This document shows, in pieces, positions 2,150 to 21,424 of a stretch of DNA of 22,629 bases. Position 1 is the first letter of the stretch. Every line of letters starts with the position of its first letter. Both the position numbers and the translations under genes were made by a program. The notes beneath the pieces were generated by a model, which made no database searches, had not been told where the DNA came from, and saw only the letters and a list, made by a program, of their open reading frames with translations. Source of the DNA: a virus; IMG/VR virus record IMGVR_UViG_3300032288_001615, positions 1 to 22,629 of that record, one strand, 5' to 3'.

Positions 2150-3160
2150 TTATCTTTTTTTCCAATTAATAAATTCCATCTTTGCTCTAAGATTTACAAA
2201 GGTACTTTTACTTATAAAATCTTGTATTTCGTCAGGTGAGAATCCACCATTCAAAACCATTTCATTCACATCCTTTTCTACAATCAATTCTGGCCAAATA
2301 ACAACAGCATAATGTTCATCAATAGCTTTCTCCATCTGCTTATGTAGTTCTTTATTCCGAGGCTCATTGTCATAAACCAAAACTATTTTTGTTCTGTCAA
2401 ATAATTTAGATGCCGACATCAAATTTGCATCGGCAGTTGCGATGGCGTTCTCCAAGAACATGGAGTCAATAGGACCTTCCACAACATAAATGGTCTTCTC
2501 CTTGTCGATCCTATCAAGACCAAAGACCTTGTGATTATCATCATTCATCTTTATGGTGATATATCTCAACTTAGATTCACCCAAGGCACGACCTTGAAAT
2601 GCTATCAGATTCTTATCTTCATCATAGAATGGTATTACCAGGCGTGGGTCGTTCTCTTTGAGGGTGTCCTTCTCAAGATTGAGGCTTTCCACGAACTTCT
2701 TAAAATCTTCTGCGTAATATAGTTCTGAATAAAAGGCCTGTGGTATTTGTCTTGCTTCCACGTATGTCTTAGCAAAATGGCCATCTGGTAACGATTCAAT
2801 TGAAGGAATCGTAAGCGACTTCTTAAACTTGGGTGCTGGTGCCTTAAAGTCCTCAAAGTTCGGTGTCGGCGAATTGGTAGCATTACCGTTTTTATACCGT
2901 TCAAGTGAATACTCCTTACAAAGTGTAGGATCAACTTTATCTAAAAAGTTATAAAAAGATGTGGATGCACCACAGTTGTGGCACATGTAAAAGTAATTGT
3001 TCTTTTTTTCGTAAATATATCCACGTGTCTTGGATTTATTCTTTGATGAATCGCCACAGAGAGGGCACCTGAAGTTATACAGGTTCTCTTTCTTCTGTGT
3101 GAATTTTTGAAGCTTCGGGGATACCCTCAGCAAAAAGGTTCTATCAATAAAAACGGACAT
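2150..3160 (-). CDS. 61: DNA primase, T4 gp61 type
   Basis: This is the primase that lays down RNA primers for lagging-strand synthesis, acting with the replicative helicase (gp41 in T4). The N-terminus has a zinc ribbon with CPLCGDS (C32, C35) and CHNCG (C60, C63). The middle contains the primase-type stretch LVIPFYDEDKNLIAFQGRA. The TOPRIM domain shows the catalytic glutamate in VVEGPIDS (E228) and the metal-binding aspartate in LVYDNEPRNK (D264). The length, 336 aa, is close to T4 gp61 (about 340). It is the first gene of the primase-thyX-nrdA run, and a dyad containing TATAAT lies just upstream. Third-position GC is noticeably higher in parts of this gene (for example 2641-2700), which creates a 99-codon shadow ORF that I do not regard as real. 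Confidence 0.93.
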   Translation of the reverse strand: MSVFIDRTFLLRVSPKLQKFTQKKENLYNFRCPLCGDSSKNKSKTRGYIYEKKNNYFYMCHNCGASTSFYNFLDKVDPTLCKEYSLERYKNGNATNSPTPNFEDFKAPAPKFKKSLTIPSIESLPDGHFAKTYVEARQIPQAFYSELYYAEDFKKFVESLNLEKDTLKENDPRLVIPFYDEDKNLIAFQGRALGESKLRYITIKMNDDNHKVFGLDRIDKEKTIYVVEGPIDSMFLENAIATADANLMSASKLFDRTKIVLVYDNEPRNKELHKQMEKAIDEHYAVVIWPELIVEKDVNEMVLNGGFSPDEIQDFISKSTFVNLRAKMEFINWKKR

Positions 3161-4690: not shown

Positions 4691-5125
4691 TTAGTTACAC
4701 CAAGAAGTTTTAGCTTCACCATAATACTCACGAGCATAACCTTGTTGTATCAACATCATACGAAGACTTTTTCCATCTAATATTACATCACCTAAGACTC
4801 GACCACCATACTTATCCCAATCCATGAGTATAATTTGTCTTTTAGTTGCTGCATTGATTTGAGCTTTAGTGAAGGCACTAGCTGCTTGTCCTCTTGCATC
4901 TTCACTTGGACAACCTGCTCTGAATCCTTTTTCTGGTGTATCAACACCAAATACTCTGATTGAAAGTTCTTGTTTAAGTGGTGCAGGTAAAAATGGTGCT
5001 TGAAATGCAACAGTATCACCGTCAATAACACGGGTAATTACTGCATCATATGTGACACCTTCTTTTTGTTTTTGTGCAAATGTTAAACAAGGTATTAATA
5101 ATAAAATAAGTAATAATTTTTTCAT
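4691..5125 (-). CDS. Secreted SNase-like thermonuclease
   Basis: A staphylococcal-nuclease-fold enzyme that cleaves DNA and RNA with calcium. The 144-aa protein begins with a signal peptide (MKKLLLILLLIPCLTFA), so it should act in the periplasm or outside the cell. The SNase landmarks are intact: IDGDT (D35, D37), IRVFGVDTPEKG (R57, D62, E65), KYGGRVLGDV (R109) and LIQQGYAREYYGE. C72 and C143 could form a disulfide. It begins 2 bp after the endolysin gene stop with an RBS (GGGAG). A nuclease exported at lysis could clear host DNA released from the cell or attack DNA of competitors; this is inference. Confidence 0.9.
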   Translation of the reverse strand: MKKLLLILLLIPCLTFAQKQKEGVTYDAVITRVIDGDTVAFQAPFLPAPLKQELSIRVFGVDTPEKGFRAGCPSEDARGQAASAFTKAQINAATKRQIILMDWDKYGGRVLGDVILDGKSLRMMLIQQGYAREYYGEAKTSWCN

Positions 5126-5759: not shown

Positions 5760-6083
5760 CTAAACAGTAAAACTGCTACCACAACCACATGTGTGTTTAG
5801 CATTTGGATTTGTTATAACAAATTCTTTTGTCATCAATTCATCTTTATAATCAATACTAGCACCTTGTAGATATTGCATACTCATAGCATCAACTAATAC
5901 TTTAAATTCACCTAATGATACTTCAAAGTCATCTTCATTTTTAATTTCGTCTAGTGTAAAACCATAATTAAAACCAGAACAACCACCACCTTGAACGAAA
6001 GTTCTAAGTGAGATATTCGGATTATTTTCTTCCGCTAGTATGTCTAAAATCTTAGACTTTGCAGCACTTGTTATTGTAATCAT
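5760..6083 (-). CDS. erpA: A-type Fe-S carrier protein (ErpA/IscA-like)
   Basis: A HesB/IscA-family protein that carries Fe-S clusters from the scaffold to apo-enzymes. All three cluster cysteines are present: [11 protein letters not shown] (C35) and HTCGCGSSF (C99, C101). The text around them, including [16 protein letters not shown] and [15 protein letters not shown], is close to bacterial ErpA. The 107-aa length is normal. Its start lies inside the 3' end of iscU (32-bp overlap) with no strong RBS, so translation is probably coupled. It is followed directly by the endolysin. As phage gene content this is an auxiliary metabolic gene, probably supporting Fe-S enzymes late in infection. Confidence 0.94.
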
Positions 6084-6435
6084 TTATAGCGGCCTTTATA
6101 GCATCTTCTGCAAGTATTGAACAATGTATTTTAACCGGTGGGAGGGCAAGTTCTTCAGCAATTTCTGAATTACTAATTTTTCCCGCTTGGTTAAGTGTTT
6201 TTCCTTTGATCCACTCGGTAACAAGGCTTGAACTTGCGATTGCTGAACCACATCCGTATGTTTTGAATTTTGCATCTTTTATTATTCCATCTTCTACTTT
6301 AATTTGAAGTTTCATAACATCTCCGCAAGCAGGTGCGCCGACCATACCAGTACCAATGGTATCATCAATAATACTAAAACTACCCACATTCCGGGGGTTT
6401 TCATAATGGTCAAGCACTTGTTGGGAGTAAGCCAT
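6052..6435 (-). CDS. iscU: Fe-S cluster assembly scaffold IscU
   Basis: IscU is the scaffold on which [2Fe-2S] clusters are built from sulfur given by the cysteine desulfurase. The protein is 127 aa. The three ligand cysteines are in GAPACGDVM (C37, with D39), [12 protein letters not shown] (C62) and [12 protein letters not shown] (C105). The chaperone-recognition motif LPPVK (98-102) is intact, so it should still dock to the host HscA. No IscS, HscA/B or ferredoxin gene is in the window, which implies use of host partners. Its C-terminus (NNKCCKV) carries two extra cysteines and is overlapped by erpA. The ATG shares a base with the stop of a 15-codon mini-ORF (TAATG). Confidence 0.95.
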
Positions 6436-7161: not shown

Positions 7162-7743
7162 TTACATTTTTGTCTGTTTACGTTTTAAGAATGACATTAC
7201 TGGATTTCTTTTCTTTGATACGCCAGGTTCACCACCAGCGCCGCCTGAACCAGCAATATTTCCACCACCAACATTATTAGTAGGTACACCACCTATGGCA
7301 CCATCTTCTTTAACACAACTGCCTTGTGTAAATTCTTTTGTACCTTTTTTACGTTTGTATCCTGGCCAACAGGCTTCATCCATAGATTCATCATTTTCGG
7401 AAAGCTTGTCTACTTTATCAATATAATTCATGGTATTTTTTTTCATCGATGAACCAGGTTTTCTTAATAAACCTTTTTCTTTTTCTTCACGTTTTTTGGA
7501 TTTTGCAATTTTATCTAAATCAACTCTAGTAAATGGATTAAATTTGTTAGATTCTTTGATGTTCTTTTTGGCCAAGTCCATTGTGATACCTTTTGCAATT
7601 GCAGCATTGTGGCCACCTTCACGAGCACCTTGGTCATAATACTCCTTAGCCTTATCATCTAAGTGTTTTTTCTGACGAGCAATTTCAGCAGCATCTTGTT
7701 GCTTGGTCGCCCCTGGACCCAAATATTGCTTAAATGTTTTCAT
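7162..7743 (-). CDS. Basic virion-associated protein with capsid-targeting-like N-terminus, unknown function
   Basis: A 193-aa Lys-rich, largely disordered-looking protein. It opens with MKTFKQYLG, similar to the T4 internal-protein targeting peptide (MKTYQEFIAE). It contains MDEACWPGYKRKKGTKEF then GSCVKED (C125, C143), a motif I associate with phage structural-region proteins. It then has a Gly/Asn-rich linker (about 148-172) and a basic end, KKRNPVMSFLKRKQTKM. The charge and disorder suit packaging with DNA in the head. The gene overlaps the upstream one by ATGA and is followed by the spanin pair. No enzymatic motif is visible. Head location is inferred from its N-terminus and position. 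Confidence 0.75.
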   Translation of the reverse strand: MKTFKQYLGPGATKQQDAAEIARQKKHLDDKAKEYYDQGAREGGHNAAIAKGITMDLAKKNIKESNKFNPFTRVDLDKIAKSKKREEKEKGLLRKPGSSMKKNTMNYIDKVDKLSENDESMDEACWPGYKRKKGTKEFTQGSCVKEDGAIGGVPTNNVGGGNIAGSGGAGGEPGVSKKRNPVMSFLKRKQTKM

Positions 7744-8126
7744 ATTGCTCTTAGTATTTCTATTATATTGGTTTCTAATGGAATATCCTGTGTATAGATG
7801 TTTTTTCCTCTTATACCATATACTATATCAGGCATAATATCTAAGTATGATAGAAAAGTTTTCAGTATATCATAATCACGTTCATCTATTCTATAGAACA
7901 ATATTCTTGCAGTAGATTCTGGACCAAAAACATTGTTCAATAGTATGATATGATTTAAAATTAATCTTTCTTTGACGGATTTAGTTATCTTATATCTACG
8001 AAATAACCTTTTCAGGTATTTTGTCCTTTTGATATCTCCATCAAACTCAGATTGTATACAATGTGGTGAAGTATAGCATTTTATAGCATACATCAAAAAA
8101 TTGTCATCATTTAAATCATCAAACAT
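7740..8126 (-). CDS. Conserved T4-like marine phage protein of unknown function
   Basis: A 128-aa soluble protein, beginning MFDDLNDDNFLMYAIKCY. It contains RTKYLKRLFRRYKI and the phrase ERLILNHIILLNNVFGPE, then ILFYRIDERDYDILKTFL. It matches in feel a conserved hypothetical family found near head genes in cyanophages and other marine T4-like phages; I do not know a function. It looks helical, with no signal, transmembrane or metal motif. There is no RBS in front of its ATG. Instead a GC-rich hairpin ends about 6 bases upstream, so translation may depend on coupling or on RNA structure. Confidence 0.78.
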   Translation of the reverse strand: MFDDLNDDNFLMYAIKCYTSPHCIQSEFDGDIKRTKYLKRLFRRYKITKSVKERLILNHIILLNNVFGPESTARILFYRIDERDYDILKTFLSYLDIMPDIVYGIRGKNIYTQDIPLETNIIEILRAI

Positions 8127-8132
8127 ATTGAA

Positions 8133-8151
8133 GGGGGGTAGTTAACCCCCT
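8133..8151 (-). terminator. GC-rich intergenic hairpin after virion gene
   Basis: On the minus strand GGGGGT-loop-ACCCCC forms a 6-bp stem (8134-8139 with 8145-8150), extended by a possible G-U pair, with a 5-nt loop. It lies between the stop of the Gly/Ala-rich virion protein gene and the next ATG. No U-run follows in the direction of transcription, so it may be an attenuator, a transcript-end stabiliser or a start-site control rather than a standard terminator. Confidence 0.5.
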
Positions 8152-8157
8152 GTTGTA

Positions 8158-9024
8158 TTAATTATCAGGTAAAGTAATATCGTCTGAACCATCACCAACT
8201 ATGGTTGACTGAGCAACAAGAGTTTCAAACTGTACACGACCCGCACGTCCACCAGTACCAGCTATTTTCAAATTCCAGCCAATGTGTGTTGCATGTTCTG
8301 CACCATCTGAACCTTGGCCAAGACCTCTACTCGCAACAGCAGTAGCACGTGTGCCGGCATCAATTGCTAAATATTGACCGGCTTCACCTGTACTCGTTAT
8401 ATTAATTACAACAGCGTTAGCGGCGTTTGCAGCAGTTGTTGATAGTTGGAATCTGTTTGCATCAAGTGGTGCAGCAAAATATGTTGTGCCATTCAATAAA
8501 CCAGTGATGTTTGCAGAACCACCCCAATTAAATGTTAAAGAAGCACCGTTTGCTTGTCCGTGGCCAGTATACATGATTGTATCATTAGCTGTAATAACTG
8601 CAGCTGTAGGAATAGTTAAAAGTGGTATTTGAACCGTAACTGTTGGATCTGATGTGAATGCTTGACCTGTATTAGCAACAGCAATGTTTGTTACTACACC
8701 ACCAGCAATACTAGCTGTTGCGGTTGCATCCTTACCGCCACCACCAGAGATGGTTACACCAGGAGCTTCCACATAACCTGCACCAGCAATTGCAACTGCG
8801 ATGCCACCAACATTGTCTGAACCTGCGTTTGCTTCTGTTGCATCAATCATAAACAAACCAACAGTTTGGTCTGTTCTATATACACTTGCAGTTGTATTTC
8901 CATACAAAACGGCTACGTTTGCTGCTGTTGGTGCGGATGTAGGTTGATTAAGTTGTGTTGATACTGAACTAACTGCCCAATATGGTGCGTTAGCTGCGTT
9001 ATCGTTATTTCCCCAAGATGACAT
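8158..9024 (-). CDS. Virion structural protein, Gly/Ala-rich beta-type
   Basis: A 288-aa protein with the conserved opening MSSWGNNDNAANAPYWAV and closing region HIGWNLKIAGTGGRAGRVQFETLVA, both known to me from structural proteins of marine T4-like phages. The middle (about 70-135) is a beta-rich repeat pattern, GAGYVEAPGVTISGGGG and then PTVTVQI. It is followed by GTTYFAAPLDANRFQLS (about 179-195), a module common in phage surface proteins. It is low in charge and cysteine-free. It has the strongest RBS in the region (AAAAGGAG), its own candidate late promoter, and a hairpin after its stop, all expected of an abundant virion component. The exact place in the particle (capsid decoration, neck or fibre) cannot be told. 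Confidence 0.82.
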   Translation of the reverse strand: MSSWGNNDNAANAPYWAVSSVSTQLNQPTSAPTAANVAVLYGNTTASVYRTDQTVGLFMIDATEANAGSDNVGGIAVAIAGAGYVEAPGVTISGGGGKDATATASIAGGVVTNIAVANTGQAFTSDPTVTVQIPLLTIPTAAVITANDTIMYTGHGQANGASLTFNWGGSANITGLLNGTTYFAAPLDANRFQLSTTAANAANAVVINITSTGEAGQYLAIDAGTRATAVASRGLGQGSDGAEHATHIGWNLKIAGTGGRAGRVQFETLVAQSTIVGDGSDDITLPDN

Positions 9025-9056
9025 TTTATTCTCCTTTTAACCGAGGGTTATCTTTG

Positions 9057-9064
9057 TATTTATC
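9057..9064 (-). promoter_or_regulatory. Candidate T4-type late promoter (GATAAATA)
   Basis: GATAAATA on the minus strand, one base from the T4 late consensus TATAAATA, lies 33 nt upstream of the virion gene start at 9024 and overlaps the stop of the previous gene. The position suits an own late promoter for an abundant protein. One mismatch in an AT-rich genome keeps confidence low. Confidence 0.35.
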
Positions 9065-10658
9065 TGTTATTGTTTTTAGGTTTATCAGATTGACCTAATG
9101 AACCTGGTTTAGGTGGCTTCATCATAGGATCAATTTCTACTGTGTCACGTGGAGTGCCTGTTAAGGTTGTTCCACCTGTCATAATTGCTGCGGCTTGTGG
9201 TTTCCCACCAACCGATTCAATCTTCTTTTCATTGTCACTTAATTTTGGTTTTTTACCATAAGTGGCAATAGATTTTCCTTCTTTCTCCGTATCATAAATC
9301 TCCTCCTTCATGCCTTTCCTTTTGTAGATAGACTTGATAATTCGAGCAGACTTTGACATTTGAATCAACTTTTTACCTTTTGATACAGTATCATCTGGAT
9401 TGTTTGCACAATCATAAGGTGATTGAGTGGCAGATTGTGGATCTTCCAAAGCAGCTTCTTGTTGTTGAACAGGTTGTTTAGCCTTTTCATTTCTTTCTGC
9501 GGCCTCACGGGACTTATCTTTAAGTTCTCTGGCTTCACGTTCTTTACGGAGTGCTTGTGCCAATCGGAGAGCAGCAGAACCTTCTTGTATTGGTGTGCCT
9601 TCAATTTCAACCGAATCGGCAGTATACTTTCCACCTTGCGATGGATCTGTACCTTTAGGTAATTCTAAAGTTGTTGTCAATCTTCTTGTAGCACGATTCA
9701 AACCCATTAGTTGTTTATCGTGGGTTGCTCTTGGCATACCTTTTGGTTTATCTTGGCGAGTTGCACCAGTCTGAGCATATCTTTTCTTCAAATAAGAATG
9801 TGTTAGTTCTTTTGATATTTCATCAATAGGTTCTATTTCTTCCATCATGCGACCTTTGTGTTCAATAGAAACAATCTTAGAACCGGGAGCATGTTTAGTT
9901 ACCAGTTTGTGTGCATGGTCTTCATTATCCGCTTTAACATTAAATGATTTAGTATCAGTCTTAACATGATATTTTTGTTTGATTATTTTAGTTGGACCAA
10001 AATGTTTGTCTTTCCAAGGATCATGAGCTTCTTTTACATCTTCATTCTTACTAGACAAGTAGTTACCAACAGTATCCACATAATCTGTGGCCAAAGTGAT
10101 TTTAGATTGTATCCATGCTGGTAGTTGTTTTTTAGCGTCTTTATTAACATATGTACGAATCATATCAATGGCACGTTCTAATTGTTCTAATTGGTCTAGT
10201 ACCATACTACCTTCGTCATCCAACATCCTACCCATGGCAATAGCAATATGATTTTCTTTAACATGTCTTGACCTAATATTAGGAAGATTAGCAATCATTT
10301 TATAATCTGCCATTGTCAATACACCTTTATTGCGAATTTGTATTAGTCTTTCAACTACACGGTGTAAATCAATGTCTGACTTGATATCTTCTCTTGTCAA
10401 TTCAAGCACACGAATCAATAAAGGAATATCAAATGTAACGGTATCTTTCTTATCAGTACCTTCAACAACTCTAGTTAAATCGGTCGCATGGTCACGTTGC
10501 CATTTTTTAAATTGTCCCATTTTTGAATGAGCAACTTTTTGGTCTTTAGTAACAGTTTTAGGATTAAGACCCCTAGATTTTAAAAATCTATCTAACGTAG
10601 GACTTTCGGCAACTTGTCCTTTGACAATCGATTTCAATAAATCGGATTTCTTAGACAT
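9060..10658 (-). CDS. Large charged structural-region protein of unknown function
   Basis: A 532-aa protein conserved, as far as I recognise it, in marine T4-like phages. The N-terminal part holds SPTLDRFLKSRGLNPKTVTK and a helical region to about residue 200. From about 220 there is a small domain, KYHVKTDTKSFNVKADNEDH, resembling a short beta-alpha module. Next comes EEIEPIDEISKELTHSYLKK, a version of a motif that recurs twice in the upstream gene. The rest is charged and low in complexity, with a Gln-rich stretch and a final conserved-looking part containing GGTTLTGTPRDTVEIDPMMK. It overlaps the upstream gene by 8 bases. A scaffold, internal-head or tail role is possible; none is proved. 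Confidence 0.78.
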   Translation of the reverse strand: MSKKSDLLKSIVKGQVAESPTLDRFLKSRGLNPKTVTKDQKVAHSKMGQFKKWQRDHATDLTRVVEGTDKKDTVTFDIPLLIRVLELTREDIKSDIDLHRVVERLIQIRNKGVLTMADYKMIANLPNIRSRHVKENHIAIAMGRMLDDEGSMVLDQLEQLERAIDMIRTYVNKDAKKQLPAWIQSKITLATDYVDTVGNYLSSKNEDVKEAHDPWKDKHFGPTKIIKQKYHVKTDTKSFNVKADNEDHAHKLVTKHAPGSKIVSIEHKGRMMEEIEPIDEISKELTHSYLKKRYAQTGATRQDKPKGMPRATHDKQLMGLNRATRRLTTTLELPKGTDPSQGGKYTADSVEIEGTPIQEGSAALRLAQALRKEREARELKDKSREAAERNEKAKQPVQQQEAALEDPQSATQSPYDCANNPDDTVSKGKKLIQMSKSARIIKSIYKRKGMKEEIYDTEKEGKSIATYGKKPKLSDNEKKIESVGGKPQAAAIMTGGTTLTGTPRDTVEIDPMMKPPKPGSLGQSDKPKNNNR

Positions 10659-11907
10659 TTTTCTTGCCCATCATTTCATTTCTCATTCTACCAAGAGAAT
10701 TCTTAGCCAATCTCTGTGCAACTTTCATTGGTTTAGTCATATCGGTCGCAAAATTAGGTTGTGAACCGCATCCAGCATCCATGTTTGGATCTTTACCTTC
10801 TTTTACTTCTTGTTCTGGTTTGTCCTTTTGCTTAGAACCACCATAACGTGAACCTTCTTTCTTACCAGAACCACCTGATGGTTTAGGACCAGACTTCACC
10901 TTTTCTTGTGCGGCTTTGACCATATCGTCCCAGCCTTCTTCAACTGTTTCAGTTTCTTCTTTCTTGTACATATCTTTCTTCAGACGGTCTAAATGGTCTT
11001 TATCTGAACCACCGGTCAAAGCTTTGAAAGTTTTCTTAGCAACATTTTTGATAGCATCCTTTAGGCCTTCTTGAACAACTTCTTCATTATTCTTTGAATA
11101 GTATGCTGCCAAGGCCATTTCTTTACGTTTAGCATCGGACTTACCAGCAAATTTAGGATTATCTGAATGTACAAAGTCATGGATCCAATCACCAGCAGAA
11201 GCGTCTTTCGACATTACTTCATTAATCAATTCGTCCAGAACCGGTTCTTCTAATCTCTCTTTCATTTGCTTAAGAGTATATTCTTCTTTTTTCATTTTGT
11301 CATGAGCTTTACCCATGTTCTGGATGTCTTTGGCATTCTCTTTTGAACCGGATTGAGTTTTGCCTTTCATGTATTCGGATTTCTTTTTATCCAAATATGA
11401 ACCTAATGTTGACTTTGACAATTCATCAATCTGTTCAACTTCTTCAAATGCATGTTGACCAGATGGTTTCAAACCTGCTGCTCTATTTTTAGTTTCAATC
11501 TTATTGCTTGCTTTACCGGCAAGGTCATATCGCTTAGTTGCTTTACCTTCATCACCTTCACGACTTGCATCAGAAGCGGCAGAAGTTGCAGCACCTTTTA
11601 CTCTTGTTAATGTATTGATAGATAGCTCATCAATCTGTTCTGCTTCTTCTTTAACTTTCTTTTCTCCACGGAGAATTTTGAAATCTTCTGGATCAACTTT
11701 GTTGTTCTTATTTTTATCAATTAAATGTTGATTGCCCTTCAAAGCTTCATCAACGTTATCTTCTTTACGGAGAAGCCTGAAGTCTTCCGGATCAATTTTA
11801 TTGTTCTTGTTTTTATCAATCTTGTGTTGATTACCCTTGAGTGCTTCTTGTTGTAAAATCTCTTTTACAGCATCAGCAACAGGATCGTGTTTTTTTAAAT
11901 TTATCAT
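10651..11907 (-). CDS. Structural-region protein with duplicated EF-hand/dockerin-like loops
   Basis: The protein has 418 aa from ATG 11907, chosen over a longer frame because it has a GGAG RBS and gives the natural start MINLKKHDPVADAV. Residues 22-84 are a 33-residue tandem duplication, ALKGNQHKIDKNKNNKIDPE then ALKGNQHLIDKNKNNKVDPE. Each has a calcium-loop pattern D-x-N-x-N-x-x-(I/V)-D-x-x-D followed by FxxLR, as in EF-hands and dockerins. Two copies of an EE-x-EQIDELS-x-x-TL motif follow (about 90-105 and 157-172). The rest is highly charged, alternating Lys/Glu-rich segments with short ordered ones such as AGDWIHDFVHSDNPKFAGKS. Probably a virion or assembly protein; the function is unknown. 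Confidence 0.8.
   Translation of the reverse strand: MINLKKHDPVADAVKEILQQEALKGNQHKIDKNKNNKIDPEDFRLLRKEDNVDEALKGNQHLIDKNKNNKVDPEDFKILRGEKKVKEEAEQIDELSINTLTRVKGAATSAASDASREGDEGKATKRYDLAGKASNKIETKNRAAGLKPSGQHAFEEVEQIDELSKSTLGSYLDKKKSEYMKGKTQSGSKENAKDIQNMGKAHDKMKKEEYTLKQMKERLEEPVLDELINEVMSKDASAGDWIHDFVHSDNPKFAGKSDAKRKEMALAAYYSKNNEEVVQEGLKDAIKNVAKKTFKALTGGSDKDHLDRLKKDMYKKEETETVEEGWDDMVKAAQEKVKSGPKPSGGSGKKEGSRYGGSKQKDKPEQEVKEGKDPNMDAGCGSQPNFATDMTKPMKVAQRLAKNSLGRMRNEMMGKKNV
11668..11847 (-). repeat. Two 81-bp direct repeats encoding the EF-hand-like units
   Basis: Copies lie at 11668-11748 and 11767-11847, offset 99 bp (33 codons). They are clearly alike at DNA level but with many third-position changes, so this is an old or selectively kept in-frame duplication rather than a recent slip. 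Confidence 0.85.
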
Positions 11908-11920
11908 TATTGTTCTCCGT

Positions 11921-12223
11921 TTAGCAATTCCACTTGCGTAGTGATTTATTGATCCTTGAATCAGGGTCACGGGCTGTGGCCGCTGAGGTTAATCTCTTTT
12001 TCATTCCCGACATTCTAGCACAAAATGACTTGCGTCTATTTGCTGCCTTGGATCCGGCTTTTAATTTAGAAGGCTTAGTTGTAACAGCCATAGAAAGTTT
12101 AGAACCTGGATTTTCAGCACGATAGGATGCAATACCCTTTCGGTTGAGTCCACCTTCTGGATTCTTACCAGCAGAACGTTGCCATGCTGGAGATTCTTCT
12201 AAAAATTCTAAGAATGATTTCAT
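11921..12223 (-). CDS. Small basic head-region protein, conserved in marine phages
   Basis: A 100-aa, strongly basic protein. The N-terminus MKSFLEFLEE resembles the T4 capsid-targeting peptide, and LEE before S fits a prohead-protease-type site (L-x-E). The remainder is a compact conserved family: SPAWQRSAGKNPEGGLNRKG, NPGSKLSMAVTTKPSKLK, KAANRRKSFCARMSGMKKR and a terminal DPDSRINKSLRKWNC. I recognise this as a widespread phage family without known function. Charge and size suggest nucleic-acid binding. Cysteines occur at SFCAR and at the very last residue. The ATG overlaps the stop of the nucleotidyltransferase-kinase gene (ATGA). Confidence 0.88.
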   Translation of the reverse strand: MKSFLEFLEESPAWQRSAGKNPEGGLNRKGIASYRAENPGSKLSMAVTTKPSKLKAGSKAANRRKSFCARMSGMKKRLTSAATARDPDSRINKSLRKWNC

Positions 12224-14106
12224 CTTTTCTTCTTTTTCTTTTCTATTGTTCCGCCAATGTTATCTTTTGGATTTTGCATTGGTTCCTTATTAGTTGATCC
12301 TGGTGTAGCACCCATGTCATTTGCACCTGGATCATCAATAGCTTCTTTTTTAATTTTAATATTCTTTCTAAATTTCTTAAAAGTATTATCGTAACTATTA
12401 TCTAACGGATTAGGTGAACCACCTGAAGGCATTCCTGTATTTCCAGGATATTGAAAATTATAATCTATGCTCTCACTAGATACTGGGTTACCTATTCCTG
12501 CACCACCAGTTAAACCTGATCCATTTGTACGAGTGTTCCATGTTGATCCAACACCATCTGTGTCTTGGATACGAGAATCTTTTAATGATTTATCACCAAA
12601 CTTCTTGGTTCTTACTTTGTCTTTGTCCTTGGAGAAGTTGCTTTCTTTGGCCGTGGGGAAGATTTGGAGCCTTGGCTGGTTTTCTTCGGAGTAGGTTTTG
12701 AAGGTGTAACTTCCACGTTTTTTGTTGGCGTCCCACTTGATGTTGTCGGTGTTGGGGTCTCCGGCACGGTTGTCGGAGGTAATGTCTCCTGGACCTGCGG
12801 CTGTTGGACCAACTGATTTTCTGAGTTTGATGGATTTGTTTTCGTTGAACCGGTGAACAAACCTAGAAGTTTTCTTAACATAGTCATTTTCCTTAAATAA
12901 AGAATTAATTGAATCTCTTATATTTAGCTGCCCATGGTTTTCTAACCACATGTTTGCTGTTTCGGTATAAGATTTACCACCAAGGAAGTCATCAACATTT
13001 TGGTAAGTAAATGTGATATCTTCCTGTATTGATTCTAGTGCAACACTATTATCAAAATTTACAAATCGTTCAAAGTTCTGACGATATGCTTCTTTGCTAC
13101 TTTGAGCTAATTCCCACTTTTCTTTTCTAACAGATTCAGATACCATCTTAGTCAGACGTTCATTTCTTTGTTTACTGGCTTCATTGGTTGTATCGACAAA
13201 AACAAGCATTGTCTCATAACCAAGTTCTTCTAGTTCTTCCTTGATTGTAATCATTCTATAGTGGTCATCAGCTGGACCATTGATGATTAAAGGAAGGCGA
13301 GAACGAATTGCTTCTCTACGATAATCTTTTGATGATTCGGATAATTTCTGTTTATCCATGAGATAATCAAATGCTTGAACTGAATTGATTTCAATAGCAC
13401 CTTGATGTGGAATAGACTCACGAATGACAACATCTTTGCCGGAACCTGGTCCACCAGTCACAAAGATTGCTTTGAATAATCCATGATATGATGATTCGTG
13501 GATACCCATACCTTTACGAGTATCATGCATTAATTCTTTTGCATGTGTATCAGAAACGTGTGATGGAACGCCTTGTTTGAACTTACCAATGTCTTTATTC
13601 TTGGCATGTTCACGCATCTTGGTGCCAGACATACCAGACGTTCCTTCAGAATCTGGATCACGATGGCCAGCGGAATGTACTTGAATCTTTTTAAAATTAT
13701 ACAAATGACCTTCGTGTGTACCATTGTATTTGTGTAACTTTTCGTGATATTCTTTAACACGGTCTGAACCAGCAACCATATGTAAGTGTGTTACACCTTG
13801 TTTATGTAACTTGGCTGCATGGTGTAAGAATGTTGGATGTTCTTTAGTGGAGGCTGCAAAATTAGTGCCTGGAGAATATCTCTTGAGGTGCTTAACTTTC
13901 TGAGCAGAGGATAATGGATTTTTATTCTTATCCTGAGAATGTGATGTTACAACAGTATGTCCAGCATTATGTTTTTTGGCCACATCTTTAACTTTGTCAA
14001 TTAGTTTCAAGTGGCCAGTTGTAGGAGGATTCATACGACCAAAGGTCATAACGTGGTGTACATCACCACTTTTTTCTTCCTGCAATATATCTAAAAAAGA
14101 TTTCAT
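12220..14106 (-). CDS. Nucleotidylyltransferase / P-loop kinase fusion with disordered tail (NadR-like layout)
   Basis: A 628-aa multidomain protein. Residues 1-11 (MKSFLDILQEE) look like a capsid-targeting peptide. Residues 17-190 form a HIGH-superfamily nucleotidylyltransferase with MTFGRMNPPTTGH (the (T/H)xGH motif, T29-H32) and SGTKMREH (the ISSTxxR-like site, R165). Residues 210-360 form a P-loop kinase with Walker A VTGGPGSGKD (K224). From about 400 the protein is low in complexity but holds a conserved-looking block (DNRAGDPNTDNIKWDANKK). The order adenylyltransferase then kinase matches NadR (NMN adenylyltransferase plus nicotinamide riboside kinase), but the substrate is not proved. 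The first domain is rich in histidine. Codons for the block at 12601-12780 are unusually C-ending, and a second frame there is open (see findings). Confidence 0.88.
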   Translation of the reverse strand: MKSFLDILQEEKSGDVHHVMTFGRMNPPTTGHLKLIDKVKDVAKKHNAGHTVVTSHSQDKNKNPLSSAQKVKHLKRYSPGTNFAASTKEHPTFLHHAAKLHKQGVTHLHMVAGSDRVKEYHEKLHKYNGTHEGHLYNFKKIQVHSAGHRDPDSEGTSGMSGTKMREHAKNKDIGKFKQGVPSHVSDTHAKELMHDTRKGMGIHESSYHGLFKAIFVTGGPGSGKDVVIRESIPHQGAIEINSVQAFDYLMDKQKLSESSKDYRREAIRSRLPLIINGPADDHYRMITIKEELEELGYETMLVFVDTTNEASKQRNERLTKMVSESVRKEKWELAQSSKEAYRQNFERFVNFDNSVALESIQEDITFTYQNVDDFLGGKSYTETANMWLENHGQLNIRDSINSLFKENDYVKKTSRFVHRFNENKSIKLRKSVGPTAAGPGDITSDNRAGDPNTDNIKWDANKKRGSYTFKTYSEENQPRLQIFPTAKESNFSKDKDKVRTKKFGDKSLKDSRIQDTDGVGSTWNTRTNGSGLTGGAGIGNPVSSESIDYNFQYPGNTGMPSGGSPNPLDNSYDNTFKKFRKNIKIKKEAIDDPGANDMGATPGSTNKEPMQNPKDNIGGTIEKKKKKR

Positions 14107-15293
14107 TTACGTACTTTTAACAAATTTTGTTTAGCAAATTCTGCACGGTTAACCAACTTAGTCGGTTCATTATCATGGTGAACCACAAAACCTTCAGGTT
14201 TAGATTTCTTACCGGCAATGTGGTGTTGATAATGTCCTTCGTGTGTTTCCATTGAACTAACCAAGTGGTTCTTGGCTTGTTGTAGGTGGTGGTGCATAGT
14301 TAACAAATTACCATAATGTTGTTTGTTCTTCTCAACATGAGCAATTTGTTTGGCACCTTCACCAGTCTTTTCGGCCTTGGATTTCTCAGTCTTTACTTTG
14401 GCTGCCTTCTTTTCGTGTTCAGAATGCAGGTGTTCTTTAAAACCTTTGACAGAAGGAACTTCATCATGTCTTACTGTTTTATTGATATAGGTAGATAGAT
14501 GGCCAGTTTCACCTGAGTGTGCTGCGTGAACCGCATCATACATTTTATGACCATGTGTATCATGGATTTCTTTGGCTGCAGCCATATGTTTCTGAAAACC
14601 ATGTTCGTTTGCAGTTGAATGTGTTACTTTAGATGTATCATGTTCAGCACCGTGATGATGAACATCTGGATGTTCTTTGAAATTGTGGTGGTCAACATGC
14701 GGAGTGGCATGTTTCATGTCATCACTATATTTACTGTGTACAACTACACCAACTTTAGACCTTTTAATTTTATCTGCTTCTTTGCCATGAGCAGTATATG
14801 TAATCGTATTTGGTGTGAAAGAAACTTTGTTTTTTGCAGCTTCAAACAAATATTCTTCTTTCAACACCTTTGTATCAGTATGGTGCATTAAATCACCTTG
14901 ATATACACCAGTTTTAGGTGTTACTTTTGGTAGATGTTTGAGAGCGTGTTTTAATGTTGTTGCAAGACCTGGTGCATGACCGTGGTTCTTGTCAATGTCT
15001 TTTTCTGTATGGTTAATCTTTGGATTCTTGTTGAAGGCCGACTTGGTGGCTACAAAAAACTTACCGTTCTTAGGGTGATGGCCAAAGACAATCGATGGAG
15101 AACCATCATACTTCATTGTCAGACTACTGTTTTTGGCACCAGCCTTCATATGAGCATGTGCTTTTGTCAATGCGGCATGAGCGTGTTCAAACCCAGCATG
15201 GCCGTGCATCAAAGGACGGTCTTCTGCATGGTGAATGTGCTTGAGTTCGCCGCTTTCGGCTTCTTCCTTGAGGAAGGATTGAAATGTTAACAT
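14103..15293 (-). CDS. His-rich covalent nucleotidyltransferase (ligase-fold) head-region protein
   Basis: A 396-aa protein. It starts MLTFQSFLKEE, again resembling a capsid-targeting peptide. The ATP-grasp-independent ligase/capping motifs can be traced: motif I KYDGSPSIVFG (K61-x-D-G), a motif III-like GVYQGDLM (about 129-136), motif IV PEGFVVHH (E367) and motif V TKLVN (K379). Hence a covalent lysyl-NMP nucleotidyltransferase of the DNA/RNA ligase superfamily is the best guess; the real substrate is unknown. The sequence between III and IV is long and extremely rich in histidine: I count 54 His in 396 residues. I know relatives as conserved unnamed proteins of cyanophages. It is the first gene after the double promoter. 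RBS AAGGG. A ligase, RNA repair or non-catalytic structural role are all open. Confidence 0.82.
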   Translation of the reverse strand: MLTFQSFLKEEAESGELKHIHHAEDRPLMHGHAGFEHAHAALTKAHAHMKAGAKNSSLTMKYDGSPSIVFGHHPKNGKFFVATKSAFNKNPKINHTEKDIDKNHGHAPGLATTLKHALKHLPKVTPKTGVYQGDLMHHTDTKVLKEEYLFEAAKNKVSFTPNTITYTAHGKEADKIKRSKVGVVVHSKYSDDMKHATPHVDHHNFKEHPDVHHHGAEHDTSKVTHSTANEHGFQKHMAAAKEIHDTHGHKMYDAVHAAHSGETGHLSTYINKTVRHDEVPSVKGFKEHLHSEHEKKAAKVKTEKSKAEKTGEGAKQIAHVEKNKQHYGNLLTMHHHLQQAKNHLVSSMETHEGHYQHHIAGKKSKPEGFVVHHDNEPTKLVNRAEFAKQNLLKVRK

Positions 15294-15339: not shown

Positions 15340-15347
15340 TATTTATA
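15340..15347 (-). promoter_or_regulatory. T4-type late promoter
   Basis: TATAAATA on the minus strand is an exact match to the T4 late promoter consensus read by gp55 with gp33/gp45. It is located 47 nt before the first head-region gene (15293). The predicted leader holds a small hairpin (GCAAC/GTTGC, 15314-15331). It is consistent with late expression of the block 15293-7162 and beyond. Confidence 0.8.
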
Positions 15348-15403: not shown

Positions 15404-16081
15404 TTAATAATCTTCGATTTTACCGCCGGATAACCAACCTCGACAGTAAATGGTATCGAATTCCATAAGATATTCTTTTGGTACACTTACAAAATGTGCA
15501 TGTTCGAAATCCATAAAATCAGTCAAAGGTAACACCTTTTTTAATGATTCCATATAAGTATCAATCAATGATGGACAAAAAGAAAACATCCTAGTTATTA
15601 ATAGATGTGTGGCTTCAAGTTGTACATTAGGCATCCATGTTGGTGTTCTCTTTTTAAAAATAAATTTACCAAAATGGTCATGGTCATCAACATTAAAGCC
15701 GTCAGTTAATAGAGTTCTTCCCGACACTTTAAATATTCTTTTAACTTGTTTCAATACAGGTTCGTTTTTTAATTGATTTAGTGTAGCAAAAAGAAGTACT
15801 GTTTCAGCAGCACTTTGTTGTTTATATGTTGATAATGCTTTGACTGTCGGTTCTTCACCAAAATCATAATAAAAATTACAATAATTAGCTATAACATCTT
15901 TATCCATTTGAGGAACTGGATTAACAGATGCATCAGTAAAAAGTATTATGCTATCTGGAACTAATTCTCTTATTCGTTTAAGTGTTGCGACTGTCTGAGA
16001 AAATCTATCTTCTGGTGTCCAAACGCCAGTTAAAGGTCTAAGTGCTGAGGTAACCAAAAATAGGTTTTTATCTGGTATCAT
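15404..16081 (-). CDS. Putative glycosyltransferase-like protein
   Basis: A 225-aa protein that starts with NLFLVTSALRP and continues with an alternating strand-helix pattern (DSIILFTDAS at about 43-52). It has a KVSGRTLLTDGF segment (118-129), which recalls the acceptor or donor loop of small sugar transferases, then DFMDFEHAHF and a C-terminal RGWLSGGKIEDY. A DxD motif is not clear. Assignment rests on these weak resemblances and on being the last gene of a sugar-activation and transfer cluster; it overlaps the nucleotidyltransferase-HAD gene by ATGA. It could equally be a sugar-modifying protein of another fold. Confidence 0.7.
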   Translation of the reverse strand: MIPDKNLFLVTSALRPLTGVWTPEDRFSQTVATLKRIRELVPDSIILFTDASVNPVPQMDKDVIANYCNFYYDFGEEPTVKALSTYKQQSAAETVLLFATLNQLKNEPVLKQVKRIFKVSGRTLLTDGFNVDDHDHFGKFIFKKRTPTWMPNVQLEATHLLITRMFSFCPSLIDTYMESLKKVLPLTDFMDFEHAHFVSVPKEYLMEFDTIYCRGWLSGGKIEDY

Positions 16082-17103
16082 AGAAAATCAGAAAGATTAT
16101 CAGAATCACGTTTCAGATTAATAGCTTCGGCTCTAGGATATGGGTTATTATTATTGTAATCATTAATCAAAATACGTTTAGAATTCTGTAAACCACACAA
16201 TAAAGTGAAACTCTTAAACCCCAGAGAGTATAACAACTCTCTGGTTTTTGAAGTATGTTCGTTTTCTCTAGCAGTTGTGAAGATGAATTGAGCACCATTC
16301 TCCTGTAAATCCAAGAGTCTTTTTATATTATTAACCAATGGAATTACTTCTTTATCATATGAATTTTCACCAACTCTACCTTGAGCTTTGATGATTGTGC
16401 CATCAATATCACAGAAGATTACAGGTTTATCATTATGTTCAAACCAATCTTGTGATGTTCCAACATCAACATAGTTATACACTAACTTCTCAGTAAACAT
16501 TTGCATATCACTAATACAACGACCGATAACATCAGACACAAACAATTCTCTATCTGAAGTCAGAGATTCAAATTCTCTTTTGAACATCATTGCTGAGGAG
16601 AATTTATAACCACCAACACAAAAGGTATCTGATACCACTTCTTTCTCTACAATATCTGTAATGATGCCGTTGTTATTGGAAACAGTAAAACTCTTGGATG
16701 ACAGTTTCTTCAATACTTCATGTTGTGATATTTTAGACACACAGACATAGTTACCATCAGAAAACTCATGGTCAAAATAACTATCACAATCTTTAATGAA
16801 AATCTCAGAAGTGTGTAATCCGGCCATCTTAATGATTTGATATACTGTATCGGCTGGACCTCTGGTTGGTTTGTCTAGTATATAAATCAAACAATTCTTA
16901 TGTTCATGTTTGATTTGTTCTGTGACATTATATTTTTCTTCATGTTCTTTTAATATACCAATGTGTATTCTGTCACCACGGTTAATAAATGGACGCAAAG
17001 CATTAATCAACATCATATCATGCTTATAATCATATAAGAGATATTTTGGTTTCATGTCTGGGAATCTGGTAGACAGACCAGCGGCTGGTACAATTATTTC
17101 CAT
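16078..17103 (-). CDS. Sugar-phosphate nucleotidyltransferase fused to HAD phosphatase
   Basis: A 341-aa bifunctional protein. Residues 1-225 form a nucleotidyltransferase of the sugar/choline type: PAAGLSTRF (6-14) with MKPKYLL, a metal-binding KDCDSYF (D105, D107), and YVDVGTSQDW (211-220). Residues 228-341 form a HAD-superfamily hydrolase with all motifs: FCDIDGTI (D232, D234), FTTARE (T276), K309 and LINDYN (D315). Such fusions occur in capsule and LPS pathways. The enzyme pair would activate a phosphorylated sugar (or similar) with an NTP and remove a phosphate at another step. It overlaps the kinase gene by 10 bases and the transferase-like gene by 4, so the three products probably act together. 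Confidence 0.9.
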   Translation of the reverse strand: MEIIVPAAGLSTRFPDMKPKYLLYDYKHDMMLINALRPFINRGDRIHIGILKEHEEKYNVTEQIKHEHKNCLIYILDKPTRGPADTVYQIIKMAGLHTSEIFIKDCDSYFDHEFSDGNYVCVSKISQHEVLKKLSSKSFTVSNNNGIITDIVEKEVVSDTFCVGGYKFSSAMMFKREFESLTSDRELFVSDVIGRCISDMQMFTEKLVYNYVDVGTSQDWFEHNDKPVIFCDIDGTIIKAQGRVGENSYDKEVIPLVNNIKRLLDLQENGAQFIFTTARENEHTSKTRELLYSLGFKSFTLLCGLQNSKRILINDYNNNNPYPRAEAINLKRDSDNLSDFL

Positions 17104-17840
17104 AATCTCTTTATCTCTTTCATAATAAAATCATAATTTTTATCTCCAATTTTTGTATATAGATACACTCTTAATAACATTAAAATTAAAAGTGAATCAT
17201 CAAAAGCATCAGGATACCATCTTCTTAATTTGTCTTGTATGTGTTGTAGTTTGGTGTCAAGCCGCAAATCTGTATTACGTAGAAACCATTTACATTCTAG
17301 GTCTTGCCTCATCTTTGCAATATCAAATATATATGAATCATACTCCGTTGTTACTGCATCTATCATATAAAAATCATCACCATTTTTGTGTATGATATTC
17401 TCTAATGTTAAATCACCATGATATGTTGACTGTGGTAGTTTTTTTGGTAGTCTCTCTATCAATTCATCTCTTGTGAATGGTAGATTTTTATCATCTAACA
17501 TCCATTCTAGTTTTTTGATATATGTATCGGTGTAATCTTTATAGACCGAATCATCTGAGAAAGAATCTATTGTATCTGTAATGAAGTTGATTAATGAACT
17601 TGTATTATTATGAATCAAATATGTTTTCATATCTAATCCATGTATATATTGCATATGTAAGAGATTTCCTTCTATATGATATATCTCCGGCACAGGATAA
17701 CACCTTTCAAACAGGTTAGTTAATCTTTCAAGGTTTCTTTCAACATTATTTACCTTTTTAATGTATAAACCATTTTCACCTTCCATCAAATAGATTTGGC
17801 TACCAGAATAACCTGTTAATTCTTTTATGGTTTTGTCCAT
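17094..17840 (-). CDS. APH/choline-kinase-like small-molecule kinase
   Basis: A 248-aa protein kinase-like enzyme of the aminoglycoside phosphotransferase/choline kinase group, which phosphorylates small molecules. The catalytic loop STYHGDLTLENII (H141, D143, N148) and the metal-binding aspartate in FYMIDAVTTEYDSY (D161) are intact, followed by FDIAKMRQDL. The glycine-rich start is weak (GYSGSQIYLMEGENGLYIKK), with a likely ATP-binding lysine in the KK pair. Overlap with the nucleotidyltransferase-HAD gene indicates a kinase then nucleotidyltransferase route for making an activated sugar or an alcohol such as choline. The substrate cannot be read from the sequence. Confidence 0.87.
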   Translation of the reverse strand: MDKTIKELTGYSGSQIYLMEGENGLYIKKVNNVERNLERLTNLFERCYPVPEIYHIEGNLLHMQYIHGLDMKTYLIHNNTSSLINFITDTIDSFSDDSVYKDYTDTYIKKLEWMLDDKNLPFTRDELIERLPKKLPQSTYHGDLTLENIIHKNGDDFYMIDAVTTEYDSYIFDIAKMRQDLECKWFLRNTDLRLDTKLQHIQDKLRRWYPDAFDDSLLILMLLRVYLYTKIGDKNYDFIMKEIKRLWK

Positions 17841-18502
17841 TGGTCGATATCATCACGAATCAAGGAGTGCCATGATCCATTGTGTGGACCAGGAGGAAAT
17901 GGATTGTTCATGTTACAATATACTAAATTTTCTCCGTGTAAATTATGTTCATGTAGATTGGCTCTCATCATATCTTCACCAATAAATTGATTTCCTGTGT
18001 CATAGTATTTGTCTATATTAATATATGTTGACATGTAATCCATCATAGTTTTCTTTGAGCCAAAAGCAAATTGGTCATTACCAAAATCTCTCTCAGGTAC
18101 CATTCGACAGTTTGGTATATACAATTTACTACCATCTAAATCATTAAATGGTATAAACACATTCAATGCATAGTCTGTACGTGTCTTAATAACCCAATCA
18201 TATTCACCTTCAATCAAATGACTACAAACATACATTGAGTAAAGCATACGATAGGTAAATCGTGGTGGATGTTTCTCCGCATTCGGTGTGTTGGTGTATT
18301 TGTTATCAAAGTCACCAAGAGGTGGTACTTGTGTATGTATTTTAACTGGTTTATACAACTCGGCTAGTTTATCTTCACCTGGAAACTTCCAAGTATGAAT
18401 ATACACATCTACATCATAATGGTCTAATAGATTACGTTTATAGTATTCATAACCTTGTTCAAATGCTCTGGCTTGGCCAGAGAAACATAATGCAATTTTC
18501 AT
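17825..18502 (-). CDS. Glycosyltransferase-like protein (CFSGQAR family)
   Basis: The protein has 225 aa using the ATG at 18502; an in-frame TTG two codons earlier is less likely. It begins KIALCFSGQARAFEQGYEYY and continues VDVYIHTWK, then EYDWVIKTRTDYALN (about 100-114), and later FGSKKTMMDYM and IGEDMM. This set of motifs (SGQ-R, D-V-(Y/F)-IHTW, IKTR-x-D) belongs to a group of phage and bacterial glycosyltransferase-like proteins. Known members are predicted rather than tested, so the sugar is unknown. It overlaps the kinase gene by 16 bases. The leading gene upstream is a methyltransferase-fused protein. Confidence 0.82.
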   Translation of the reverse strand: MKIALCFSGQARAFEQGYEYYKRNLLDHYDVDVYIHTWKFPGEDKLAELYKPVKIHTQVPPLGDFDNKYTNTPNAEKHPPRFTYRMLYSMYVCSHLIEGEYDWVIKTRTDYALNVFIPFNDLDGSKLYIPNCRMVPERDFGNDQFAFGSKKTMMDYMSTYINIDKYYDTGNQFIGEDMMRANLHEHNLHGENLVYCNMNNPFPPGPHNGSWHSLIRDDIDQWTKP

Positions 18503-18504
18503 AA

Positions 18505-19902
18505 TCAATTCTTTTCGTTATATAACTTTACATATTCTTTATGTAAATCTCCATACTTTGATTTGTATGAATCATCTGTTATTGGAAACTTTTTGTATGA
18601 TATGTTGTCGGGATTCAGAAAAAGGTATAATGAAAATAGTCTTTCTACAATGAAACTAAAATTTGGTATTTGTTTTCCATTATATGTGTTTAAATCTTCA
18701 AACATATATTTTCGTAACTCTGGATCTGCGTAAGCTATAGAACCAAAGTTATCTACAAATTTCTTATATTTGAACCAAAATCTTGAATTTCCAACAAAGA
18801 AATTGCTGGTTGCGAAATGGTCACCTTTGTAAACAATTTGTTCAACTGGTGTTTCTATTCCTATTTTGGGAAATATTTTGTTAGCAAAGTCAAGTAAACC
18901 TGGATGCCATCTGTCACCTTGCACCCATAAATTAATTTCATTGGCTGCATTATCTAAAGTTGGATCCACAAAATAAACATCATAACCAGAATTATCAACT
19001 ATCCAATTTCTGAATTTTTCTTCTGATAAATTAACTTTTTGATTCCATATCCAAGATACTAAACCAAAATAAGAACCATCATCTATATGTTTATCATATA
19101 ATTTATTCCAAATAATATACTCACGCATTTCTGGATTATTGCCGTTTATATTATCGAACGGTGTAAAAATAGGATTCAATACTTTAATTTGTTCTTCTTT
19201 ATAATATGATTGATATATGTGTACACAAGGTTTTCTACATAAAACAGTTAAACCATTATTGTTTGCAAACTTTTCTCTAATGTACCACTCATCATTTTCC
19301 TTTAAAAATTCTTCTATGGCTGTAAACAAACCTTGTTTTTGAGTTTGAATTCCAGCATGAGTACTAAACGTGTGTGATATAGGATTTTCACCTTCATCTA
19401 CATATCCAAAAGTTGTAGTATCATGGAATATCATGTACTTTCTAACTTTGTGTGAATGTTGTTTCAATTCTTTTTTCAGTTGTCTGTAAACATGCCATGT
19501 ATCAATAAACAATAAATCCGTTTCTTCAATTTCAAAATTAGGATCCACAGTATCACCAATAATAAAATCCATATCAATTCCATTGAGTGCGGCCAAGGTC
19601 ATTGCATTTTCAATTGGTGCCGGATTAATATCAATAGAAACAAGTCTTTTTGGTCTGGTAGATAAGAAAGCCCAAGTGCTAACGACACTTCTTACACCCA
19701 TTTCTGTAATATGGCCACAATGTGATGCATATTTAGCAAGTGTATCTAAATGTTGATTAATATCACTAGGTGTTCTTTTCTTATTTTCAAATTCAACTTG
19801 AATTGATGATTGAGTGTTTTCAGGTTCACCTCTATCTTTTGGTCCAACAAAAATTGTTCCACTATTAATAACGGATGTAGTATCAAATATATAATCTAAC
19901 AT
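18505..19902 (-). CDS. SAM-methyltransferase-type domain fused to a large C-terminal domain
   Basis: A 465-aa protein. Residues about 50-210 form a Rossmann methyltransferase-like domain, with the nucleotide-binding ITEMGVRSVVSTWAFL (65-80), the acidic end of the second strand SIDINPAPI (D91), then DLLFIDTWHVYRQLKKEL (D134, H137) and MIFHDTTTFG (H160, D161). D-T-W-H and F-H-D-T recall cephalosporin-hydroxylase-like/MTase family 24 members that act in sugar or O-methyl modification. Residues about 225-465 are a separate domain rich in Tyr, Trp and Asn (EMREYIIWNKLYDKHIDDGS, WVQGDRWHPG, KGDHFATSNFFVG), which I do not recognise beyond a glycosyltransferase-like look. RBS AGGAAT. Probably a sugar-modifying enzyme within the glycan cluster. 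Confidence 0.85.
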   Translation of the reverse strand: MLDYIFDTTSVINSGTIFVGPKDRGEPENTQSSIQVEFENKKRTPSDINQHLDTLAKYASHCGHITEMGVRSVVSTWAFLSTRPKRLVSIDINPAPIENAMTLAALNGIDMDFIIGDTVDPNFEIEETDLLFIDTWHVYRQLKKELKQHSHKVRKYMIFHDTTTFGYVDEGENPISHTFSTHAGIQTQKQGLFTAIEEFLKENDEWYIREKFANNNGLTVLCRKPCVHIYQSYYKEEQIKVLNPIFTPFDNINGNNPEMREYIIWNKLYDKHIDDGSYFGLVSWIWNQKVNLSEEKFRNWIVDNSGYDVYFVDPTLDNAANEINLWVQGDRWHPGLLDFANKIFPKIGIETPVEQIVYKGDHFATSNFFVGNSRFWFKYKKFVDNFGSIAYADPELRKYMFEDLNTYNGKQIPNFSFIVERLFSLYLFLNPDNISYKKFPITDDSYKSKYGDLHKEYVKLYNEKN

Positions 19903-19912
19903 TAATTTATTC

Positions 19913-21423: not shown

Positions 21424-21424
21424 A

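Follow-up and report, generated by a model that had tools for sequence, protein, structure and literature searches.

The window analysed here, a 22.6 kb IMG/VR-class virus record taken as a whole, is a fragment of an uncultivated T4-like phage that we assign to a Kyanoviridae-like aquatic group. According to the list of its open reading frames (ORFs), all genes discussed lie on the minus strand. In the order of transcription, sugar and modification genes (22183 to 15404) are followed by a cassette (15293 to 7162) and a spanin-like gene, beyond which come Fe-S genes, a chitinase/lysozyme-like gene, a DNA primase gene and thyX (Table 1). Synteny places the cassette in the interval that lies between gp41/mazG and gp61 in HTVC008M, Melnitz, Syn9, S-CRM01, S-SZBM1 and S-SCSM1. 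Four of its proteins, referred to here by their start positions 15293, 14106, 12223 and 7743, begin with a short tag; of the named phages, Pelagibacter phage HTVC008M and Methylophilales phage Melnitz encode the best matches to the 14106 protein. The initial annotation had called the four head-region proteins, a label that we abandoned since the 22.6 kb window yielded no gene for a capsid, portal or scaffold protein.

Table 1 Features of the cassette and of the downstream genes in window coordinates.
Feature	Position	Strand	Basis or remark
T4-type late promoter core TATAAATA, putative	15340..15347	-	47-54 nt upstream of first tagged gene
Tagged DUF6267 protein, RNA-ligase-like nucleotidyltransferase, 396 aa	14103..15293	-	PF19782, E 2.7e-94
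Predicted capsid-targeting tag MLTFQSFLKE	15264..15293	-	Predicted cleavage after E10; ORF start MLTFQSFLKEE
Tagged adenylyltransferase (NMNAT/PPAT-like) with P-loop kinase	12220..14106	-	PF01467
Predicted capsid-targeting tag MKSFLDILQE	14077..14106	-	Score 18.7; ORF start MKSFLDILQEE
Tagged small basic protein with DUF6321, pI 10.9	11921..12223	-	PF19846, E 1.4e-18; composition
Predicted capsid-targeting tag MKSFLEFLEE	12194..12223	-	Score 24.3; ORF start MKSFLEFLEES
Untagged cassette protein with EF-hand-like and EQIDELS repeats	10651..11970	-	
Untagged cassette protein with central segment DIPLLIRVLELTREDIKSDIDLHRVVERL	9060..10658	-	
Untagged putative virion protein	8158..9024	-	PHROG matches: baseplate/head proteins
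Tagged basic protein, 193 aa, no Pfam match	7162..7743	-	Pfam search
Tag MKTFKQYLGP	7714..7743	-	Score 20.5 despite no E10; ORF start MKTFKQYLGPG
DNA primase, gp61-type	2150-3160	-	
thyX	1490-2137	-	

Several cassette proteins are basic and poor in hydrophobic residues. Among the untagged ones, the putative virion protein starts with MSSWGNNDNAANAPYWAV, which resembles the start of a gene in a related genome (G001) that has its own TATAAATA late promoter. The DIPLLIRVLELTREDIKSDIDLHRVVERL segment of a second untagged protein resembles, by eye, stand-alone tagged mini-proteins of 71-80 aa found in L032, L047 and L069. Immediately upstream of the cassette, the sugar/modification cluster (15404-22183) includes a nucleotidyltransferase-HAD fusion, a methyltransferase, a 2OG-Fe(II) oxygenase and an APH/RIO-like kinase. 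NifU_N and Fe-S_biosyn genes lie side by side in the phage lysis/late region (5760-6435), and a staphylococcal-nuclease-like protein (4691-5125) has a hydrophobic N-terminal stretch.

The N-terminal tag and its carriers

Translation of the ORFs gave the four N-termini exactly as initially annotated, and the T4 targeting peptide with which they had been compared, MKTYQEFIAE, was confirmed in the T4 record for both IPIII and IPII. All four window tags have F4 and L8, residue 7 is F, I, F and Y, respectively, and E10 is present in three. In these three, the L-x-E sites (LKE, LQE and LEE) occupy residues 8-10, the position of the T4 site; the 7743 protein indeed lacks such a site and continues from L8 into G9-P10. 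Mutational work on T4 IPIII attributed targeting mainly to residues 4 and 7 and gp21 processing to residues 8 and 10, and a T4 variant with Asp at position 10 was targeted but not processed (PMC9026906). Since the 7743 protein has L8 but P10, we counted it as tag-bearing and not as a full member of the T4-type capsid targeting sequences (CTS); targeting without cleavage at the residue-10 site is predicted for it. Within its family of 36 tagged proteins, 25 have E or D at residue 10.

We aligned the N-termini of homologs of the two largest carriers. Across 35 DUF6267 homologs, M1, F4 and E10 did not vary and conservation of F7 and L8 was at least 90%; these conserved residues are those mapped in T4 IPIII. 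Across 31 adenylyltransferase-kinase homologs, M1, K2 and E10 were invariant and F4 was at least 90% conserved. This conservation is partly built in, since the sequences were chosen as tag-motif matches; the motif used to choose them did not require E10.

The initial annotation had left room for a chance match, which was rejected by shuffles, motif counts and a permuted pattern. With a score matrix trained on 140 tag decamers from the loci, the window's own tags included, the four tags scored 18.7-24.3 and T4 IPIII 14.2, and no shuffled N-terminus reached these values. Counts of a loose core motif, 1-7 per genome, were mostly within the range given by shuffles (mean 0.9-1.8, maximum 4-6), and we therefore used the matrix and a stricter motif instead. 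The strict motif opens 11 genes in six complete genomes, compared to ~0.2 by shuffling. Two degenerate DNA patterns of the tag gave at least 120 matches each in viral contigs, where the one permuted control pattern gave none, and 232 of the 249 pattern matches listed begin an ORF of at least 60 aa.

Among loci fetched by homology, 326 distinct proteins carried the tag. They formed 32 clusters, of which a few resemble chance matches without E10. Among the matches listed, the pattern scans gave at least 220 distinct tagged proteins in at least 76 clusters, including 51 singletons. We used star clustering with coverage, as single linkage had chained unrelated families and was dropped. Pfam names among the tagged representatives were SAM lyase, ADP-ribosyltransferase exoenzyme, adenylate kinase, adenylyltransferase, DUF6267, HAD phosphatase, HD domain, lysozyme, methyltransferase and DUF6321; about half of the 30 cluster representatives scanned had no Pfam match.

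A SAM lyase represents a tagged cluster of 33 among the matches listed, and tagged SAM lyases recur in viral contigs, for example at L474:5285-5797 and L187:3840-5081. Together with the presence of the S-CREM2 one in a published virion list, they fit injected anti-restriction. At L395:6150-6758, the tag is followed by an ADP-ribosyltransferase exoenzyme domain (PF03496), which recalls T4 Alt, and a tagged protein at L136:8889-9323 contains FHDLPAKD, similar by eye to FHDLPDKD of T4 IPII.

Predicted folds of the two large carriers

Two of the carriers had been said to look like enzymes, a ligase-fold nucleotidyltransferase and a nucleotidylyltransferase-kinase. In the 15293 protein, the ligase motifs are intact, and K61xD63G64 (motif I), E367G368 (IV) and K379 (V) are invariant in the 35 homologs. 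The structural model (pLDDT 87.7) is confident from ~residue 18; residues 1-17 have mostly low pLDDT, and the tag is thus placed in a low-confidence stretch preceding the folded domain. RNA ligases ranked first in VIA-align (Naegleria RNA ligase Z 9.0, T4 Rnl2 8.0), but Foldseek with the model gave no significant match and a PDB sequence search with the DUF6267 alignment gave none. The ligase assignment therefore rests on the motifs and a moderate fold match, and on this basis we read the protein as RNA-ligase-like, with its active-site motifs preserved and its activity inferred. It contains 13.6% His and no Cys, compared to 1-4% His in untagged homologs, which contain Cys; the tagged Melnitz DUF6267 protein is Cys-free with only 1.2% His.

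For the 14106 protein, PF01467 and the fold matches of both domains fit a nucleotidylyltransferase-kinase. In the model, the adenylyltransferase domain matched the PPAT/NMNAT fold (Z 12.7-14.6), PPAT structures matching as well as or better than NMNAT, and the P-loop kinase domain resembled guanylate/polynucleotide kinases (Z ~13). The sequence TTGH provides the (H/T)xGH motif, and the C-terminus is modelled as disordered from ~residue 403. A PDB sequence search with the family alignment found no match. We conclude from the sequence and the modelled fold that this protein is an adenylyltransferase-kinase, for which NMN has not been shown to be a substrate.

Putative late promoter, prohead protease and virion proteins of relatives

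The element TATAAATA, which we take to be a late promoter from the T4 consensus and without transcription data, has a single match in the window. Of 84 distinct regions upstream of tagged DUF6267 genes, 77 contain it at about -50, compared to 1.5 expected by shuffling. It was not enriched upstream of the later tagged genes in the cassette, as an operon predicts. In four relatives of 172-180 kb (G001-G004), it occurs 5-8 times per genome versus 27-34 expected from composition, and in all four it is found upstream of both scaffold gene 22 and the cassette with the tag. The genes that it precedes in these genomes are a handful, many of them late; since it is under-represented genome-wide and placed before few genes, it is usable for mapping late operons. 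A second TATAAAT immediately 5' of the 15293 start was left out of the promoter reading.

The prohead protease family PF03420 was present in all eight long relatives. Among tag-bearing contigs, it was present in 8 of 9 longer than 150 kb and in 1 of 7 shorter ones; the window, a 22.6 kb fragment, showed no protease gene. A search for protease sites had been proposed in the initial annotation. Scaffold proteins are rich in L/I-x-E (S-CREM2 z 5.0, HTVC008M z 2.8), but the cargo bodies showed no uniform depletion, and the 14106 family contains about twice the shuffle expectation. Depletion of L/I-x-E as a sign of cargo exposure to the protease is thus not general and was not retained.

Published virion proteomes of related phages were compared with the tag. 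For S-CREM2, 52 of 219 proteins are listed in the virion (PMC10665884, Table 3). The top five matrix scores among its 219 translated CDS belong to gp154 (named adenylyltransferase), gp6 (SAM lyase), gp14 (kinase), gp136 and gp13, and all five are in that list (hypergeometric 6e-4). S-CREM2 was not among the matrix training genomes. With a simple regular expression, the tag was found in 4 of the 52 virion proteins versus 1 of the 167 others (p 0.012). The ranking concerns a single genome in which tagged proteins are few, and the virion proteins were already known when the short-tag variant was admitted. The tag is absent from many virion proteins of S-CREM2, including hypothetical ones, and is therefore not the sole way in. 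One protein in the published list, gp12 (L187:7704-10313), is annotated as Cas9; its first ~170 residues resemble S-CRM01 g128 (44% identity, E 2e-40), a tag-like stretch lies inside this g128-like part, and ~700 further residues follow. We considered an injected Cas9 and dropped it, as no Pfam domain matched.

Tagged NMNAT-like homologs of the 14106 protein are reported from the virions of S-CREM2, S-SZBM1 and S-SCSM1. S-SCSM1 ORF91, detected by mass spectrometry (PMC9602691), starts with MKSFLQFLKEA, and the virion protein S-SZBM1_140 (PMC9146016) starts with MRFRQFIIEA, shorter by one residue. The cytidylyltransferase T4-GC190 is present in S-SM1 virions (PMC3037559). In the S-SZBM1 list, the untagged S-SZBM1_139 adjoins a tagged protein; S-SZBM1_191 and S-SZBM1_192 are tagged, yet are missing from the 30-protein list (PMC9146016). 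Homologs lacking the tag, which were to count against packaging, do exist in the DUF6267 family and fulfil this condition in part, but the untagged S-CREM2 gp87 and S-SZBM1_141 are absent from their phages' virion lists. The authors of two cyanophage proteomes regarded such enzymes as possibly co-purified and not packaged (one of the two is PMC9602691).

Proposed packaging, alternatives and known systems

We consider it highly probable that the cassette encodes a late operon whose products carry a T4-type tag, are packaged in the prohead, cleaved and ejected with the DNA. Almost all of the computational tests relevant to packaging point the same way, and the initial proposal is supported by the residue pattern, its conservation, the unrelated bodies behind it, the protease of relatives, the promoter and the homologs in virions. 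The support for the tag, its conservation, the promoter and the virion presence of homologs comes from sequence and from published data on relatives; core binding, cleavage, injection and cargo function are inferred, injection and cleavage by analogy with T4.

The first ten residues of the four proteins would then act as a T4-type capsid targeting sequence on products made late, from an operon headed by a TATAAATA promoter of the type preceding gene 22. The tag would bind the prohead core and so bring its carriers into the prohead, where a gp21-type protease would cut three of them after E10 and leave mature enzymes inside the head. The 7743 protein may keep its tag or be cut at another site. 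At infection, the packaged proteins would exit together with the DNA, and the RNA-ligase-like protein and the adenylyltransferase-kinase could act immediately on host RNA or on nucleotide/NAD pools. This pair might thereby serve repair or counter host defence; its function is a guess, with repair of RNA and supply of NAD/nucleotides against host defence both plausible by inference. The small basic proteins may serve as T4 IP-like factors. Hydrophobic residues are scarce in tagged enzymes, which often also lack Cys, and it is our speculation that low hydrophobicity may help unfolding for tail passage. Since several unrelated enzymes are tagged and tagged homologs occur in purified particles of related phages, such phages probably inject ready-made enzymes.

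Alternatively, the tag might target the prohead core while its carriers are scaffold or assembly factors, mostly degraded or expelled instead of injected. The operon and scaffold gene 22 have the same type of promoter, the basic, hydrophobic-poor composition of several cassette proteins would suit such factors, and gp21 cuts T4 core proteins to pieces (PMC9026906). We nevertheless regard this as unlikely, since both large carriers have the folds of enzymes and conserved motifs of the active site, SAM lyase, ADP-ribosyltransferase and adenylate kinase are also among the cargo, and tagged homologs persist in the mature virions of three phages. It is very improbable that the N-terminal likeness reflects a constraint on the mRNA start region, acting in translation control, and not on the peptide: there is some bias to A/T-rich codons at positions 2, 4 and 8, but most conserved residues vary in their third codon position, the F7 and E10 codons are near bulk, and the conserved positions coincide with those mapped in the T4 peptide. 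Finally, we give practically no credence to the tagged genes being duplicates of one ancestor whose tag has no sorting role, because, although some small families share repeats and are possibly related, the bodies fall into 32 and at least 76 clusters at the similarity thresholds used, unrelated folds included, and DUF6267 occurs both with and without the tag.

Extending the packaging of tagged proteins beyond this window, we think it likely that aquatic T4-like phages share a modular delivery system in which a single decamer serves as the tag for loading dozens of unrelated effector enzymes into the prohead. The cargo would comprise SAM lyase, ADP-ribosyltransferase, adenylate kinase, RNA-ligase-like, adenylyltransferase-kinase, HAD and HD enzymes. 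If true, this would provide a sequence handle for injected phage effectors straight from metagenomes, and it suggests that many head-packaged effectors still await study. The injected proteins of aquatic phages are largely unknown, and the enzymes in cyanophage virions have so far been regarded as possibly co-purified material. Since the short tag ranks virion proteins first in a phage outside the training set, the proposal is testable by sequence, proteomics and reporter fusion.

In the open-licence literature, we found no description of the tag outside T4 and its close relatives, where it would be a sorting signal common to aquatic T4-like phages, and no link between it and the enzymes known from cyanophage virions; the search did not extend to subscription journals and preprints, so an earlier description is not excluded. 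The T4 internal proteins IPI, IPII and IPIII and their capsid targeting sequence were reportedly described by Mullaney and Black. The window tags share with them a decamer with an aromatic residue at 4, an aromatic or aliphatic residue at 7, L/I at 8 and E at 10, and unrelated bodies likewise follow one tag, the T4 IPIII body being Cys-free and basic. Unlike the T4 internal proteins, the cargo here includes large multi-domain enzymes, one window carrier lacks E10, and the phage belongs to a Kyanoviridae-like aquatic group. T4 Alt is an ADP-ribosyltransferase that is packaged in the head and injected. It is an enzyme in the head, as is proposed for the window carriers, and the tagged ADP-ribosyltransferase in viral contig L395 parallels it, without a direct comparison with Alt, whereas the window carriers are ligase-like and adenylyltransferase-kinase proteins.

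The NMNAT/cytidylyltransferases of cyanophage virions (S-SM1 T4-GC190, S-CREM2 gp154, S-SZBM1_140 and S-SCSM1 ORF91) are homologous to the adenylyltransferase domain of the 14106 protein and differ from it in the kinase domain and C-terminus. The tag is present in all three with a known start (S-CREM2, S-SZBM1 and S-SCSM1). The published passages on these enzymes mention no sorting signal, and co-purification is considered in two of the papers. In phage P1, an N-terminal signal of DarB is sufficient to package a reporter and DarB is believed to enter the cell; the authors found no consensus among Dar N-termini (PMC9024508). The packaging signal is N-terminal there, as is proposed here, the sequences not having been compared with the T4-type tag. 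In conclusion, a T4-type CTS and packaged enzymes are each known already, and the cargo described here is much broader.
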